From: Hepatocystis sp. ex Piliocolobus tephrosceles | Lineage: Eukaryota > Apicomplexa > Aconoidasida > Haemosporida > Plasmodiidae | Assembly (NCBI GenBank): GCA_902459845.2 | Contig: CABPSV020000087.1 | Location: forward strand, 1-27,500 | Reading direction: 5' to 3' | Length of the DNA: 27,500 nucleotides | In this document: positions 6,623 to 25,832 of the stretch, one piece after another | Layout of the letters: each line of letters opens with the position of its first letter | Position numbering within the stretch: the stretch's first letter is position 1 | Position numbers and translations under genes: made by a program | Notes under the pieces: generated by a model | The model's database searches: none | What the model was told of the DNA's origin: nothing | What the model saw: the letters and a program-made list of their open reading frames with translations, nothing else

Positions 6623-7687
6623 ATGATTATAAATAAAAGCATAGTGTTTATTCTAATTTTGTTTTTAATATGTTTACAATGTGTAAAAGCCGGGTGATCT
6701 AAACAGTTGCATATAAAGTTACCAAATGAAGATGATGATTATTTAGCAAAAATAGTTAATATACTAAATAATATTTGTACATACACAATAAATAATAAAG
6801 CGAAAGTAGCAAAAGGAATAACCACATCTGTAGTTTCAGTATATACAATCAATTCTTTATATAAATCAGGTATAACTTTAAAAAAAAATCCACATTATTC
6901 TTTTTTTATTCCTTCAGATACATATATTCAAAATATAATTAAAAAATTAAATGAACAACATGACGACACTCAAATAAACAAATTAATCGAAAATGCAAAT
7001 AAAAATATAATAATATTCAAAAAAGAGTTAACTAACAAATGTTCAGATACTAATAAACAATATATAGAACTATGTATTAACAATTATTTGATGAATTTTG
7101 TTGATTTTTTACCTAAAAGAATAAAAAATATATCATCATTTGAATTTTTAAAATATACAGAAGTGGGTAACAATATGGACAAACAAAAAAACATAGACAA
7201 TATATTTAATTATGTTAAAGTGGTAAGAAAGAAACAAAATATGTTACTTTTTCATGGGAAATTAAAAAAAAAAGGAATATGGATACATTTACTATTCAAA
7301 ATATTTATTGAAAAAAACGAAGAAAATAATAATTTTTACACAATAACACTAGTACCATTATACAAACATTATTCTAATTATATAATAGAATTTAAAATAG
7401 AAAAAACGGATAGTAAATTAACGTTTTTAACTAACATAAAAATGAAAGAAAATGAAAGAAACAATAATAGTTTGCATATAAATATAATCGAAAATATTGC
7501 AATGTATGTAACATATAGAATATTCGAAGGAATAAATAATAATATGAATTTATTTTATAAAAGAAATGTCATTCTAAACCGAATGAATTTTATCAGATCA
7601 GAAAAATTGTTTCAAAACAAACGCAAAAATATGAATACAAAATATTATTGGCCATTTTTTAAAGCACAAAATTTTAAGTTAAAATAG
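6623..7687 (+). CDS. Putative selenoprotein: signal peptide, in-frame UGA (Sec25), then a 329-residue body
   Basis: The ATG at 6623 opens a textbook signal sequence: MIINKS, a hydrophobic core of about 14 residues, then C-VKA-G with an ideal -3/-1 V-x-A cleavage site. Codon 25 is TGA (6695-6697), after which the same frame stays open to TAG at 7685-7687, giving 354 residues with UGA read as Sec. A caller that stops at TGA would begin at a non-ATG TTG at 6707 and lose the signal peptide. A SECIS-type element lies about 400 nt past the stop (8083-8149), which makes Sec insertion the best reading. The body is Asn/Lys-rich with Cys at about 52, 140 and 151. A moderately hydrophobic stretch at about 62-80 could be a second membrane segment. 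A beta-rich part lies at about 195-260. I recognise no enzyme domain. If cleavage occurs after Ala23, Sec would be residue 2 of the mature secretory-pathway protein. Alternatives are a fresh nonsense mutation or plain readthrough. Divergent from the RAP gene, convergent with FeSOD. Confidence 0.82.
6695..6697 (+). other. In-frame UGA, proposed selenocysteine codon
   Basis: TGA sits between GGG (Gly24) and TCT (Ser26), directly after the signal peptide and in the same frame as both flanking coding segments. The only GT...AG pair that would remove it (6683-6706) would make a 24-nt intron, far below the usual Plasmodium minimum. The SECIS-like element in the same transcript's 3' region supports Sec decoding. 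Confidence 0.78.
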
Positions 7688-7724: not shown

Positions 7725-8752
7725 AAGCGAGTTGTAAATGCATATAACATATCGTATAAAGTATCACATTGTAATAAAAATTATCTCATACAATTTATCT
7801 CAGTAGTGATTATTCTAATACTAATTAAGGTTATTTTATACTTTACCATGTAAAATGTACCTAAAATGAGCAATTTTGTTTTGTTTTGTTTTGTTTTGTC
7901 AATCAATTTGTCGTTTCGTTGTTACTACTAAATTTTTTTTTTTTTTTTTTTTTGACACTATTATATGTACACACATAGTACACGCTTAAAAATGTCTTTG
8001 TAAATATATATATATATATATGTGTGTCATGTGTGTCTATGTACTATATATAATCCATCATCTTCATAATTTAAAAAAAAAAATGAACTAATGATGATTT
8101 ATTCCCAAACCCTGAAAATAAAAGGAAGGAATAAGTCGGACATGTTCATAATTAATAACACACCTAAAAACTTTTCTCTATTTATCATAATTATAATTAT
8201 TATTATTATTATTATTATTATTTTTTTAATATATTAACATATTTAATTAATTTTTAAAAATGTTTGTATATGCTACAATGGTTTATATACTGAATATACG
8301 ATAAGTAAAAAAAAAAATTCCATACATGTATATATATATATATATTGCAAAAAAAAAAAAAAAAAAAAAAGGAAAAATAAAAGTTCAAGTGATATATAAG
8401 TAATATAGCTATATAATAGAAACTACTACGTTTATAGGATACTAATTACATAAATATATGCATATTATACCTAACTTGATTTATATAGACAAGTGTTCAT
8501 ACACTTATACAATAGAAATATAAATATATGTATGTATATATATATATATATATATATACTTGTGTAATACTTATTTAATGCTATACAAAAATAATTCATA
8601 AAAAAATAACAAAAAATGGATTAATTTGTTAGAAATTTTTACTTATTTACTATTGGGAGTAAAAAATAAAAAAAAAATGCGTTAATTTGTTAACATTCCT
8701 TCTAATTTATCATTAGAAAAAAAAAAAAAAAAAAGTAAGAAAACAAAATATA
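7688..8752. other. Convergent 3' region between the selenoprotein gene and FeSOD, containing the SECIS
   Basis: Begins with A29 (7692-7720) after the stop, then ordinary AT-rich sequence, a short TTTTG repeat (about 7876-7899), T-runs and (AT)n runs. The unusual segment is 8083-8149, described separately. The rest shows nothing coding. Confidence 0.65.
8083..8149 (+). promoter_or_regulatory. Eukaryotic SECIS element (selenocysteine insertion sequence) in the 3'UTR
   Basis: Every landmark is visible. Helix I is a perfect 6-bp pairing, ATGAAC (8083-8088) with GTTCAT (8144-8149). A small internal loop follows. The core is ATGA (8091-8094) opposite GAC (8139-8141), giving tandem G-A/A-G pairs plus U-C. 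Helix II is 11 bp with no bulge, 8095-8105 with 8128-8138, with two G-U wobbles. The conserved apical adenines are AAA at 8107-8109, 12 nt after the ATGA. A possible 3-bp mini-helix, CCT (8111-8113) with AGG (8123-8125), would make it a form II SECIS. The strand matches the only upstream gene that has an in-frame UGA. Recognised by pattern only; no covariance score was run. Confidence 0.85.
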
Positions 8753-9346
8753 TTAATTATTTAAAGCGTTTTTTAAATTTTCATTAGCAAAGTTCCAATT
8801 AATTAAATTCCACCATGCCTTAACATAAGACGCTCTGTCATTTCTGTAATCAATGTAATAAGCATGTTCCCATATGTCACATGTTAGTATGGGTATACCT
8901 GAATTTTCTTTTATTGGATTATTTGCATCGTGTGTTTGTAAAATTACTAATTTTTTATTATTATTTAAAGCTAGCCATCCCCAACCTGAACCAAAATGTC
9001 CACATAAAATATTTGAAAAATCATCTTTAAATTTACTAAACGAACCAAAATCTTCTTGAATTTTTTCTTTTATTTCACCAAATGGTTCACCCCCACAATT
9101 AGGACCCATAGAATCCCAATAGAAAGTGTGATTCCATATTTGAGCGGCATTATTAAAAATTGCTCCTGATGATTCTTTCATTATATCTATTAACGCCTTA
9201 TTTTCGAATGGCGTACCTTTTATTAAACCATTTAATTTATTTACATATCCAGCATGATGTTTATTATAATGAAAATTTAAAGTTTCTTCACTAATATGGG
9301 GCATTAAAGCATTTAAAGAGTATTTTAATTTCGGTAACGATAACAT
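8753..9346 (-). CDS. FeSOD: Iron superoxide dismutase, cytosolic type
   Basis: Converts superoxide to hydrogen peroxide and oxygen. 197 residues, the usual length for the short Plasmodium/bacterial Fe-SOD, and in one exon. The metal ligands are all present: His26 (HYNKHHAGY), His73 (AQIWNHTFYW), Asp157 and His161 (CDIWEHAYYID). Gln69 just before the second ligand and the gateway residues His30/Tyr34 fit the iron rather than the manganese type. There is no presequence ahead of LPKLKY, so it should be the cytosolic isoform rather than the organelle-targeted second Plasmodium Fe-SOD. The sequence resembles the P. falciparum enzyme closely but with many substitutions. The ATG is the first in frame and its mRNA leader is A-rich. 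It runs convergent to the selenoprotein gene; both could serve redox defence, but nothing visible couples them. Confidence 0.98.
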   Translation of the reverse strand: MLSLPKLKYSLNALMPHISEETLNFHYNKHHAGYVNKLNGLIKGTPFENKALIDIMKESSGAIFNNAAQIWNHTFYWDSMGPNCGGEPFGEIKEKIQEDFGSFSKFKDDFSNILCGHFGSGWGWLALNNNKKLVILQTHDANNPIKENSGIPILTCDIWEHAYYIDYRNDRASYVKAWWNLINWNFANENLKNALNN

Positions 9347-9602
9347 TGTTGTGTATTGTGTTATTTAGATTTTTTTTTTTATTTTTTTTTTATTTTTTTT
9401 TGTTTTTTTTGTTTTTTTTGTTTTTTTTGTTGTTTCGGTGAGGGATTGATTTTTTTTTTTTTTGTTCGGATTTCCGATAAAACTTTTTATTATTCTTTTC
9501 AATATAAATTGTTTTTATTTATTATTTTTTATTATCTAGTGTAAATTATATTTAAAAAAAAAATTTTGGGAGGCTATTATATGTAAAAATAAATGTAGTA
9601 TA

Positions 9603-20180: not shown

Positions 20181-20255
20181 AAGAAAGGAAGGGAGGAAAT
20201 AAAGTAAGAACACATGAATAAATTAAACACACACAGTAAGACCTAATATACAAAA

Positions 20256-22334
20256 ATGAAAGTAAGAAAAACATTTGCATTAATTGTTGGAGGAGGTCCA
20301 ACTGGCGTAACAACAGGTTTATATCTTCAGAAGTATGGTATACCACATATTTTAATAGAAAAAAATAAATATATAGAAAAAACACCCAGATCTCATTATT
20401 ATAATAATCAAACTATGGAAGCATGGAGAAATATATGCCATTTAGATAAATGTTTTATTAATGAAACAGAAAATTTAAATTTATGGAAAAATTTTAAATA
20501 CTGTTTAAATATAAAAAAAGATAAAGTACTATGTTGTTATAATAATTTTTCTAATAAATACACTTATAAAGATACATATTATGAAGATTTAAGTCCTTCA
20601 AAAGTAACTCATTTATCACAATATAAACTATTAGGTATTTTATATAGTTATTATCTTGAAAAAATAAAATGTGAACCAATTCAAAAAAAACAGTTTTTAA
20701 GTAAAATCAAATTAAAATTATCAACATATAGAATTCTAAAAAATAGTTTGAATTATCAAATTAACAATGATGTATCATTTTTGGATGATCAAAAAAAAAA
20801 AAAAAAAAAAAAAGAGTTTTATATTAACGGGGAAGAAAAAACAAGCCAAACAAGTCAAACATACAATTGTGGTGATAATTCTTTTTTTTTTGATATATCT
20901 GAAATGCTAATTGGATATGAATTTATAAATTTTGTAAATGCTTCTGAATTTGAAACGATTGATAAATTAAATGGGTTCGAAAATGAGACACATAATAAAA
21001 ATAATGACTATGAAATAAATAATTTGTCACCTTATTACATAAACAGACCAAATTATGTAGTAACAAGAATAAAAAATGTAAGTACCAATGAAGAAGAAGT
21101 GGTTATAAGTAATTATGTATTTTCTAGTGAGGGTGGTAAAAGTAGTTTAAAAAAAAATTTAAATATTAACGATGAAAATAAAAAAAAGTTTATGAAATTT
21201 ATAAATGTTCATTTTCATTCTATTTATTTAAGTAATTTAGTAAAATATAATCCAGCTATGATTTATTTTTTATTTAATAGTTATGTAGGTGTTTTAGTTT
21301 GTCATAATTTTCAAACAGGAAATTTTGTTTTACATATACCTTGTATAACAAAAAATGAAATAGAAAATTATAGTAACAAAATAAAATGTTTAAATATAAT
21401 TAATAAATTAATAGGAATTCAATTATATGATATAAATATAAATGACATTAGAAAATGGACGATGTATAGTTCTATAGCTTCAACTTTTGTAGATCAACTT
21501 TCAAATAGAATAATTCTATTGGGTGATTCAGCTCATAAGTTACCTCCTTCTGGTGGTTTTGGTTTAAATTTAGGAATAGGAGATGTATTAAATATAGTTT
21601 GGAAAATTGTTAAAATTTTTAATTTAAAAATGGAAGTTTATAATGGTTGTAAAGATGTGGAAATAACGACAAATTCAAAATCTATTGCTAATATAAAAAC
21701 ACAAAAAAAATTAGGTCTAAGTTTAAAAAAAGAAACCCAAAAAATGAACTCTGATTTTAATTTATTAACTAAGCATGATAAAAAAAAAATAAAAAATTAT
21801 ATAACCTCATACAATATTGAAAGAAAATTAGTAGCTAGTTATACAATTTATAATGCTAATTTAAATTATGAAAAAGGAAGTAACATACCACATATATTAG
21901 GATATCATCAAAACATGGTACTAAATTTTTTTAACACATTTAATATAGGTTTTTGTGAAAAATCGTTGATTTTTAATTTTTTATTTACAAACGTAAAAAA
22001 TATTTTAAATTTTTTTAATAACATTCCATATATATTTGAATACAAAAAAAAACAAGCAGAAAAATTAATTAAATATGAAGAGAATACATTAACTTTGTTA
22101 TATCCTGGATTAGATTGTTGTTATTCTTACACCAACACTATTAGTGGTGATTTCAATGAAAATTGTTCTGAAGATGTTGATGAACATTGTTTTGAGAATG
22201 GTAGTAAAAATTGTTTTGTAAAAGATTCAGTAAAATATTATGAAAATGATACGGTAAAAGATTGTGAAGGCGATGGTGATAACGATAGTAACACAAACCA
22301 GTTTGTGGCGAACGAACCTGTTGAAGATAATAGC

Positions 22335-22380
<46 letters not shown>

Positions 22381-22427
22381 GCAGTAACAACAGCAGTAAC
22401 AAAATCAAAGAAATCAACAATAACAAT

Positions 22428-22503
<76 letters not shown>

Positions 22504-23186
22504 GTAGTGATACTATAAAAAATCAGATTTTTGAAAAAACAAAAGAAACTATTCCTAAATTGAAAGTGTGTAAAAATATATATAAGTTCGAAATGACAAA
22601 TGTAAACGGATCAAAAATACCCCACTTTATTATTTACACATATGGAAAAAATAGAATTTATAAACTTTCGACTGTTGATTTACCTATTTTTAACAATTTG
22701 TTTTTATCTAATTTAATTATTTTATTTGATCATATGTTATTAAATAATTTAATTGATTATTTTTTTAAACATAATATACCAAAAAATAAATTCTTATTTT
22801 GTTTATGGGATTCAAATATTTTAGTTTATAAAAACAAAAAAACACAAACTATTAATATAATAAAAGAAAATAATATTATTCATAATAAATTAGAAACAAA
22901 TTATTCTAATAACAGTGTAGTAATAAATGATTTGGTTTTATTAAAAAATAATTATAAGGAGATTCAAGAAGTTGTTTCGAATGTAAATCATATCCCTATA
23001 AAGAACCAAAATTATAATATTAATTATTTTTTCACTTCAGATGTTATAAAAAATATGTTTTTAAATACACTTAGTTTAAAATCGGATGATTCTTATGTGA
23101 TTGTAAGACCAGACAAACACATCATATCGGCTGGAGAACATGACATATACCACCAAATTAAAAAAATAAATGAAATATATATTTAG
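20256..23186 (+). CDS. FAD-dependent monooxygenase, PHBH / phenol-hydroxylase type
   Basis: Flavoprotein of the p-hydroxybenzoate-hydroxylase fold, which uses NAD(P)H and oxygen to hydroxylate ring substrates. 976 residues in one exon. Residues 12-17 (GGGPTG) form the Rossmann FAD motif. E292-G-G-K-S is the degenerate DG motif. GDSAHKLPPSGGFGLNLGI from 423 is the second FAD motif, almost textbook (GDSAH, PP, GG, N). RPD at 951-953 sits in a C-terminal stretch (YVIVRPDKHI) like the thioredoxin-fold dimerisation domain of phenol hydroxylases. Lineage inserts enlarge it: a Lys run near 180-188 and Asn runs of 15 and 29 residues at about 694-749, between catalytic and C-terminal domains. The substrate cannot be read from sequence; quinone-ring and xenobiotic hydroxylation are both possible. 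There is no obvious targeting peptide, since the FAD motif begins near residue 8. The glycine motif close to the N-terminus supports the chosen ATG. Confidence 0.92.
22335..22502 (+). repeat. (AAC)n coding repeats, two blocks
   Basis: AAC15 (22335-22379), a short Ser/Asn/Lys spacer, then a 29-codon Asn run (22416-22502) starting with mixed AAC/AAT and becoming pure AAC. Both encode Asn in the monooxygenase. Confidence 0.95.
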
Positions 23187-24095: not shown

Positions 24096-24485
24096 GATTT
24101 ATGATTAATATTATCCAGTTAGAGCAAAAAAAAAAAAGATATACATACATACATAGAAACAAATTTACATACTTATATGTTTACATACTTATATGTTTAT
24201 ATATACAACCACTTTACTACAGTTGTATTTTTGATAAAAACGAAATTAAACTTCTTGTTGAATAATCAAATTACCTGATGTTTAAAACTATCTGAAATTT
24301 AAAAGAGTGTATAACATATATCAAAAAATTAACAAATAAACAGAATAAAAAATATATTGATCCCGTTTTGGACATACATACTTATTTACATACCAACACA
24401 TTACTTCTTCTCCCTCGCTAAAAAAAAAATAATCATTCATACATTTTTAATTGTAAAAAAAAAAAAATAAATAAAAAAAAAAAAA

Positions 24486-25184
24486 ATGAATACTCACACA
24501 CAAGGGTTAAATTGTTATGAAAAAGATGTAAATGGAACATTAAAAACTAAACGAACAGTTCATATAAAAAACACTTATATATCTCCTTATGTCTTATACA
24601 ATAAAAAAGGTAATATGAACGATCAACTGATAAACTTAAATAGATTTATAAATAACGATCATATAAATATATTTACAAATAAAAATAATAATTATTTTAA
24701 AAAAGACAATAATACAGAACAACAAAACAATTTAAAATATACAACATTTAATAAACTAAATGTGAAATATAACCAAAAAAGAAATGAAGAATGGGGTTAT
24801 AATACAAATACAAATATTTTGAAAATAAATTCATATTACAATGATGAGAAAGATAATAATGAAATTACAAAAAAAGAAGGTACTTATTTAGTAGATAGAA
24901 ATCGAGCTGGTAATATTATAATAAGTGGAAATACTATAATTGGAAATAATATAAACGAAACGAATATAATTAATAGTAATATAATTAACAATGCAACAGG
25001 TAATACAATAAATAATAATACAATAAATAATACAATAGGTTATAATATTCAAATGGTGAATAATAATATAAATTATAATAATAATAATTATACATATGTT
25101 AATAAAAAAAATTATTCAGATCAATTAATACATGTTGATACTATATATTACAATACAGTTTCGAACGAACCAATAGGCAACAGT

Positions 25185-25221
<37 letters not shown>

Positions 25222-25832
25222 GTAGTAGTAGTAGTTATAATACTAGTAGCAGTAATTATAATGGAGGATTTAATGAATATGCAATACATACAGGTGATAA
25301 TAATAAAGATAAAGAAGATTTATTGAAAGATGTTATATATAAATGTGAAGATTCTATACCGCTAGGTACTATATTAAATATACATAACTTGGATAATAAT
25401 AATAATAAAATTTTTACTACTGTTATGTTAAGAAATATACCAAATAAATATACAAGAAATATGTTAATGGATGTTATGAATGAACATTTTAAAGGATTAT
25501 ATGATTTTTTTTATTTACCAATTGATTTTCGCAACAAATGTAATGTTGGATATGCATTTATAAATTTTATACATCCACATTATGCTGAAGTATTTATTAA
25601 CTTTTTTAATAATTATAAATTAGATGCATTTAAAAGTAATAAAGTTTGTACTGTTACATGGGGAAGAGTACAAGGATTAAAAGCTAATATAGAACACTAT
25701 AGAAATTCAGCTATTATGAATGTAGCTATACCACAATATAAACCAATGCTTTTTCAAAATGGCATTTCTGTTTCATGGCCAGAATCAGATGGCCCATTAC
25801 CGGCAATAAAATTAAGGTCACAAAAACATTAA
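24486..25832 (+). CDS. Mei2-type RNA-binding protein (C-terminal RRM_2 domain)
   Basis: 448 residues. The C-terminal 139 residues carry the Mei2-specific RRM: RNP2-like FTTVMLRNIPNKYT from 310, then the Mei2 signature YDFFYLPIDFRNKCNVGYAFINF, then CTVTWGRVQGLKANIEHYRNS. This is the third RRM of fission-yeast Mei2 and plant AML proteins. The first ~300 residues are Asn-rich and disordered, with no other RRM, a pure AAC12 run (25185-25220) and AGT5. So it is a single-RRM Mei2-like protein. Family knowledge: Mei2 proteins bind meiotic or regulatory RNAs, and a Mei2 homolog acts late in Plasmodium liver stages; whether this gene is that one I cannot tell. The ATG directly follows an A-rich leader. 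The stop runs almost straight into a 17-bp repeat array. RNA binding is confident; the biological stage is unknown. Confidence 0.92.
25185..25235 (+). repeat. Coding trinucleotide repeats (AAC)12(AGT)5
   Basis: A pure AAC12 run (Asn) followed by AGT5 (Ser) in the Mei2-like gene. Elsewhere in the gene Asn is mostly AAT. Confidence 0.93.

Follow-up and report, generated by a model that had tools for sequence, protein, structure and literature searches.

Does a TGA codon directly behind a signal peptide end a gene, or is it read as selenocysteine (Sec)? The question is raised by a 354-codon frame on the forward strand of contig CABPSV020000087.1 of Hepatocystis sp. ex Piliocolobus tephrosceles, of which we analyzed the first 27,500 nucleotides (nt), referred to here as the window. 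We are highly confident that this gene is the orthologue of Plasmodium Sel3, with Sec placed at UGA codon 25 under the direction of a Sec insertion sequence (SECIS) and with entry into the secretory pathway by way of the signal peptide. A first-pass annotation, made from the letters alone, had called the frame a probable selenoprotein. This call was borne out by a correctly oriented SECIS element in the 3' flank, by homology to Sel3, and by three genes of the Sec machinery in the same genome. A selenocysteine call from raw sequence alone has thus withstood an independent test, namely, the SECIS. The frame, the SECIS element, the homology, and the three machinery genes were computed; Sec incorporation, signal cleavage, and the fold are inferred.

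Reading frame, signal peptide, and SECIS element

The window is AT-rich and comes from a Plasmodium-like parasite. Its Sel3 frame opens with the ATG at 6623, has the TGA as its sole break, and runs on through 329 sense codons to a TAG (Table 1). The first 23 codons specify a basic N terminus followed by a hydrophobic core and end in V-K-A, with G as the next residue, and hydrophobicity upstream of the TGA is strong (Kyte-Doolittle mean of 2.74 in the best 17-residue stretch). By the usual rules, such a layout is a signal peptide. Translation and hydropathy therefore reproduced the start, the signal sequence ending in V-K-A before G, the TGA as codon 25, and the 329 codons described in the first-pass annotation. 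If cleavage occurs after V-K-A, where we place it by the -3/-1 rule, mature Sel3 would have Sec as its residue 2, in agreement with the mature position of about 2 proposed earlier. The window has 679 TGA triplets when every frame of both strands is counted, of which three had an upstream ATG-open stretch of 18 to 40 codons with a hydrophobic core (mean of at least 2.5).

The 3' flank, where published Plasmodium Sel genes carry their SECIS (PMC4685265), contains a match to the Rfam model SECIS_5 well above its curated cut-off of 50 bits. The match begins 394 nt 3' of the stop codon on the same strand and was the only one found in the organism's own genome (12.39 Mb, 611 contigs; 63 of 2,270 candidates scored). 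An apical AAA comes twelve bases beyond the AUGA core, and a GA is present on the 3' side; the assignment of these bases follows the usual SECIS anatomy. The stretch from 8070 to 8160 folds at -19.5 kcal/mol (z, -4.38), and none of 200 shuffles was equally stable. Among the 20 base pairs of the Rfam consensus, 14 are unchanged, 3 keep pairing despite a change of both bases, 1 has a one-sided change that still pairs, and 2 are broken by one-sided changes. Because the next gene, a superoxide dismutase gene (8753-9364), lies on the opposite strand, we assigned the SECIS to the Sel3 gene. SECIS_1 to SECIS_4 had no match in the same genome, a result that is uninformative on further selenoprotein genes, since the controls were mostly silent (SECIS_1 and SECIS_4 matched no control genome, and SECIS_2 and SECIS_3 matched E. 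coli alone).

Table 1. Positions of the Sel3 gene, its predicted parts, and its SECIS element in the window
Feature	Position	Strand	Details	Basis
Sel3 coding sequence	6623..7687	+	354 residues, Sec at 25, TAG stop 7685-7687	Translation and homology
Probable signal peptide	6623..6691	+	Residues 1-23, MIINKSIVFILILFLICLQCVKA	Hydropathy; N-terminal likeness to five relatives' models
TGA codon 25, probably read as Sec	6695..6697	+		Decoding inferred from SECIS and Sel3 homology
Predicted helix-grip (START/Bet v1-like) domain	6998..7561	+	Residues 126-313	AlphaFold models, fold comparisons
SECIS element	8082..8150	+	Rfam SECIS_5, RF01991	65.9 bits, E 2.3e-12, full model
SECIS parts		+	AUGA core 8091-8094; apical AAA 8107-8109; GA 8139-8140

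Genes of the Sec machinery are also present in this genome. A SepSecS gene scored 277 bits in the genome search and 282 bits as an open reading frame. A SelD/SPS2-like protein reached 172.6 bits with its pieces summed, above the family cut-off, and has a glycine-rich motif containing Cys (read by eye) that we take to be the active site. A Sec elongation factor has a C-terminal eEFSec domain above cut-off, and against solved structures it matched eEFSec best (140 bits, versus 99 for archaeal SelB and 49 for EF-Tu). In the mechanism that we propose, the SECIS in the mRNA would recruit this elongation factor with Sec-tRNA, UGA codon 25 would be decoded as Sec, and the signal peptide would take the nascent chain into the secretory pathway before its cleavage after V-K-A.

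As a side observation, the SelD/SPS2-like part (L008, contig C316) lies C-terminally in a frame longer than 1,000 codons, whose upstream portion had no Pfam match at E 0.001.

Sel3 homologues and their public gene models

Searched against 5.8 billion proteins, the part of the protein after the UGA gave five matches, the top one being a P. malariae "selenoprotein, putative (Sel3), partial" (48% identity, E 4.7e-78). A second search with an alignment as query gave eleven matches: the chimeric protein P0032 and ten clear relatives from P. malariae, P. ovale curtisi, P. yoelii, P. vinckei, P. inui, P. vivax, P. cynomolgi, P. fragile, P. coatneyi, and P. knowlesi. Identity to the models of these ten was 37 to 48%, over 74 to 95% of the query. 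The neighborhood is shared as well. A RAP gene adjoins the Sel3 gene in the window, and the two carry successive locus tags in P. inui (C922_00621/00622) and P. fragile (AK88_04760/04759), that is, in both of the assemblies with both tags listed. For P. inui, P. fragile, P. knowlesi, P. coatneyi, and P. cynomolgi, the longest listed contig was equally long for the RAP protein and Sel3. Based on the homology and this shared neighborhood, we take the gene to be the Sel3 orthologue; judged by sequence, the locus is a Plasmodium Sel3 gene and hence no new selenoprotein family. The first-pass annotation had suggested a comparison with Sel1-Sel4 and had missed that the gene belongs to this published family as Sel3 itself. 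The family was already known, and what is added here is the copy in this organism, an account of the public models found, and the prediction of a helix-grip domain. Lobanov et al. (2006) reportedly treat the Plasmodium Sel3 family, and Mourier (2005) is said to be a further paper on the Sel family.

The RAP protein of the window was 43 to 50% identical to its aligned relatives over nearly their whole length. In a tree of 18 of the 21 RAP proteins found plus that of the window, the organism sat on its own long branch without a settled place. P0032 shares with Sel3 only SKQLHIKLP and about the next thirty residues and was removed as a chimera ahead of the alignment (A3); it fuses the Sel3 start to sequence that resembles, by eye, 2-oxoglutarate dehydrogenase. 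Together with another protein, P0025, it may represent another haemosporidian lineage.

None of the ten named-species models contains the Sec segment: four start beyond it, five skip it, and one (P. fragile) starts differently. The P. malariae and P. ovale models, both labeled partial, open at LPNEDDDY or LPNEDEDY, while those of P. yoelii and P. vinckei open with Met a few residues ahead of DDYLGK. The P. inui, P. vivax, P. cynomolgi, P. coatneyi, and P. knowlesi models share an MVLNK start with a hydrophobic core, after which they jump ahead, with four downstream landing places and five different junctions. This start resembles the MIINK start in the window, with M-x-x-N-K and a hydrophobic core in common. 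Of 5,000 shuffles, those scoring as well in N-terminal likeness numbered 15 for P. cynomolgi, 23 for P. coatneyi, 27 for P. knowlesi, 38 for P. inui, and 135 for P. vivax; it is important to note that these five are close kin and weigh little more than one observation. Differing junctions at one site would be expected where software evades a stop in a frame that is truly read. The expectation that gene callers would mis-call the start was thus realized in all ten models, although part of this is the annotators' own truncation, as the two labeled partial indicate. Proteomic searches and localization studies that use the ten public Sel3 models found here, which are wrong or shortened N-terminally, would miss the signal peptide and Sec.

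Published accounts differ on Plasmodium selenoproteins. Sel1-Sel4 are described as four selenoprotein families of apicomplexan parasites (PMC3473315), P. falciparum is credited with at least four selenoproteins (PMC12486841), and SEL3 is one of the ring-stage hub genes when P. falciparum overexpresses PfAlba3 (PMC11878077). A discussion passage to the contrary holds that most Plasmodium species lack selenoproteins (PMC7539508). The Sel3 homologues in ten species speak against a selenoprotein-free Plasmodium.

Weighing other readings of the TGA codon

A short spliceosomal intron could remove the TGA and leave an ordinary secreted protein. Between a GT from 6626 and an AG up to 6800, twelve in-frame removals bounded by GT...AG would take out the TGA, ranging from 24 to 129 nt. 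The shortest (6683-6706) fuses the signal core to LHIKLP, much as the P. cynomolgi junction joins TTLC to LHIKLP, and nine more (36 to 129 nt) retain all or most of the hydrophobic core. The presence of the 24-nt GT...AG segment noted in the first-pass annotation was confirmed. For the remark that it is too short for a Plasmodium intron, we found no minimum length in print, and the support is the 168-nt mean of P. falciparum introns, far above 24 nt, given in PMC2975632. The 63-nt removal, which is the second that retains LHIKLP, deletes the signal-peptide core; the remaining ten lose LHIKLP, a segment found in 3 of 11 relatives' models, and eight of these also lose LPNED, which is present in 6 of 11. 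Moreover, the five different junctions of the MVLNK models look like software evading a stop, and an intron leaves the SECIS without explanation. We therefore consider splicing highly improbable.

Even less probable is that translation begins after the TGA without a signal peptide, as is implied by the P. malariae, P. ovale, P. yoelii, and P. vinckei models, which begin beyond the Sec site. Two of these four are labeled partial, five vivax-group models have a start like that of the signal peptide here, and the SECIS is present. Further, no in-frame ATG follows the TGA until codon 157 (7091), deep within the conserved protein, so the loss from a late start, for which the first-pass annotation had named the signal peptide, would be far larger still. 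That a pseudogene or a sequencing error placed a stop in a normal gene is close to negligible. The stop stands alone in one frame of a single assembly for which no reads were seen, but the frame is otherwise open for 329 codons and 37 to 48% identical to ten relatives, SECIS_5 lies in the 3' flank, and the relatives' models break near the same site.

Several results weigh against Sel3 with Sec at codon 25. Within the 12.4 Mb of genome, tRNA-Sec was found neither with RF01852 (53 of 92 candidates scored) nor by pattern search, and PSTK was not found with PF08433. P. falciparum, P. berghei, and bird-malaria Sel3 were not named in the protein searches, whose clusters may contain unlisted members. 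The case for conservation of the UGA rests on relatives' gene models, all of which skip the site, and P0032, a protein sequence, has R before SKQLHIKLP at the Sec site. A search for the relatives' Sel3 DNA returned 187 pattern matches in genome contigs and 93 in viral contigs, none of them a relative. We take the assembly to be partial, on the assumption that haemosporidian genomes measure about 18 to 25 Mb, compared with the 12.39 Mb searched.

Candidates for the missing tRNA were rejected. ARAGORN classified five sub-threshold RF01852 matches as ordinary tRNAs (four Ser, one Gln), and the surroundings of the single pattern match were, on reading, not tRNA-like.

Predicted domain and comparison with known systems

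A helix-grip (START/Bet v1-like) domain without a curated sequence match is predicted at residues 126 to 313 of the Sel3 protein. The model has a beta-alpha2-beta6-alpha fold with a long C-terminal helix, while the N-terminal helical part is of low confidence. Against this prediction stand the middling confidence of the model (mean predicted local distance difference test score [pLDDT], 57.9), with ten-residue blocks of the domain mostly at 60 to 84 but at 37 to 51 over residues 161 to 190, and the low Foldseek TM-scores (target-normalized, 0.34 to 0.55 among the 50 matches listed; best E-value, 2.5e-4). Neither START nor Bet v1 gave a profile match in Pfam, where weak matches were to unknown-function and unrelated families (best, DUF1247, E 0.0058, in 4 of 11 rows). 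A sequence search of the PDB likewise found no START/Bet v1 relatives.

Sec would sit on the low-confidence N-terminal arm, outside the predicted domain. The 11-row alignment has no invariant Cys column, so a fixed intramolecular partner for Sec is not evident; Cys 52, for instance, is present in the window and four non-vivax-group models but is Thr in five and a gap in P. knowlesi. Tentatively, the domain may bind a hydrophobic ligand such as a lipid, and the Sec on the arm may carry out redox reactions with that ligand, a partner protein, or the membrane. Sel3 could then be a selenoprotein that is secreted and has a START-type lipid-binding domain as its scaffold. With reactive selenium near its mature N terminus, it might target membrane lipids, or products of their oxidation, along the secretory pathway or inside the parasitophorous vacuole, a proposal that we regard as speculative and that lies outside the high confidence given to the Sel3 assignment. 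The predicted domain nonetheless offers a functional lead for a family that is named but poorly understood. We know of no selenoprotein with a helix-grip domain, and we found no literature joining selenoprotein, Plasmodium, and START domain. The word "selenoprotein" does not occur in the main text of a survey that used structures to find domains in unknown P. falciparum proteins (PMC11079077).

Three other frames on the forward strand of the window were examined. A frame at 24471-25832 has an RRM_2 domain (PF04059, E 1.6e-34). The frame at 20247-23186 encodes a FAD_binding_3 protein (E 1.5e-39) with long inserted Asn runs. We take these to be a Mei2-type RNA-binding domain and a monooxygenase-like protein, respectively. 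The stop-to-stop frame at 912-1964 (350 codons) contains EGVENEEAEN-type repeat units and had no Pfam match at E 0.001.

The gene resembles Plasmodium Sel3 in its homology over most of the mature part, the SECIS in its 3' flank, the in-frame UGA, and the nearby RAP gene. It differs from the known Sel3 models in being only 37 to 48% identical to them and in coming from another haemosporidian. For the predicted domain, a comparison can be made with P. falciparum PFA0210c, presumably the PfSTART1 of PMC11189555. This protein is an exported START phospholipid-transfer protein and is not termed a selenoprotein in the available part of its description (PMC3814793), whereas Sel3 would carry Sec. The helix-grip fold (predicted for Sel3) and entry into the secretory pathway (probable for Sel3) would be common to both, but Sel3 lacks a START profile match. 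SelK and SelS are eukaryotic selenoproteins of the endoplasmic reticulum with Sec on a flexible tail near the C terminus. Like them, Sel3 would hold a lone Sec outside the folded domain; unlike them, it would hold it near the mature N terminus.
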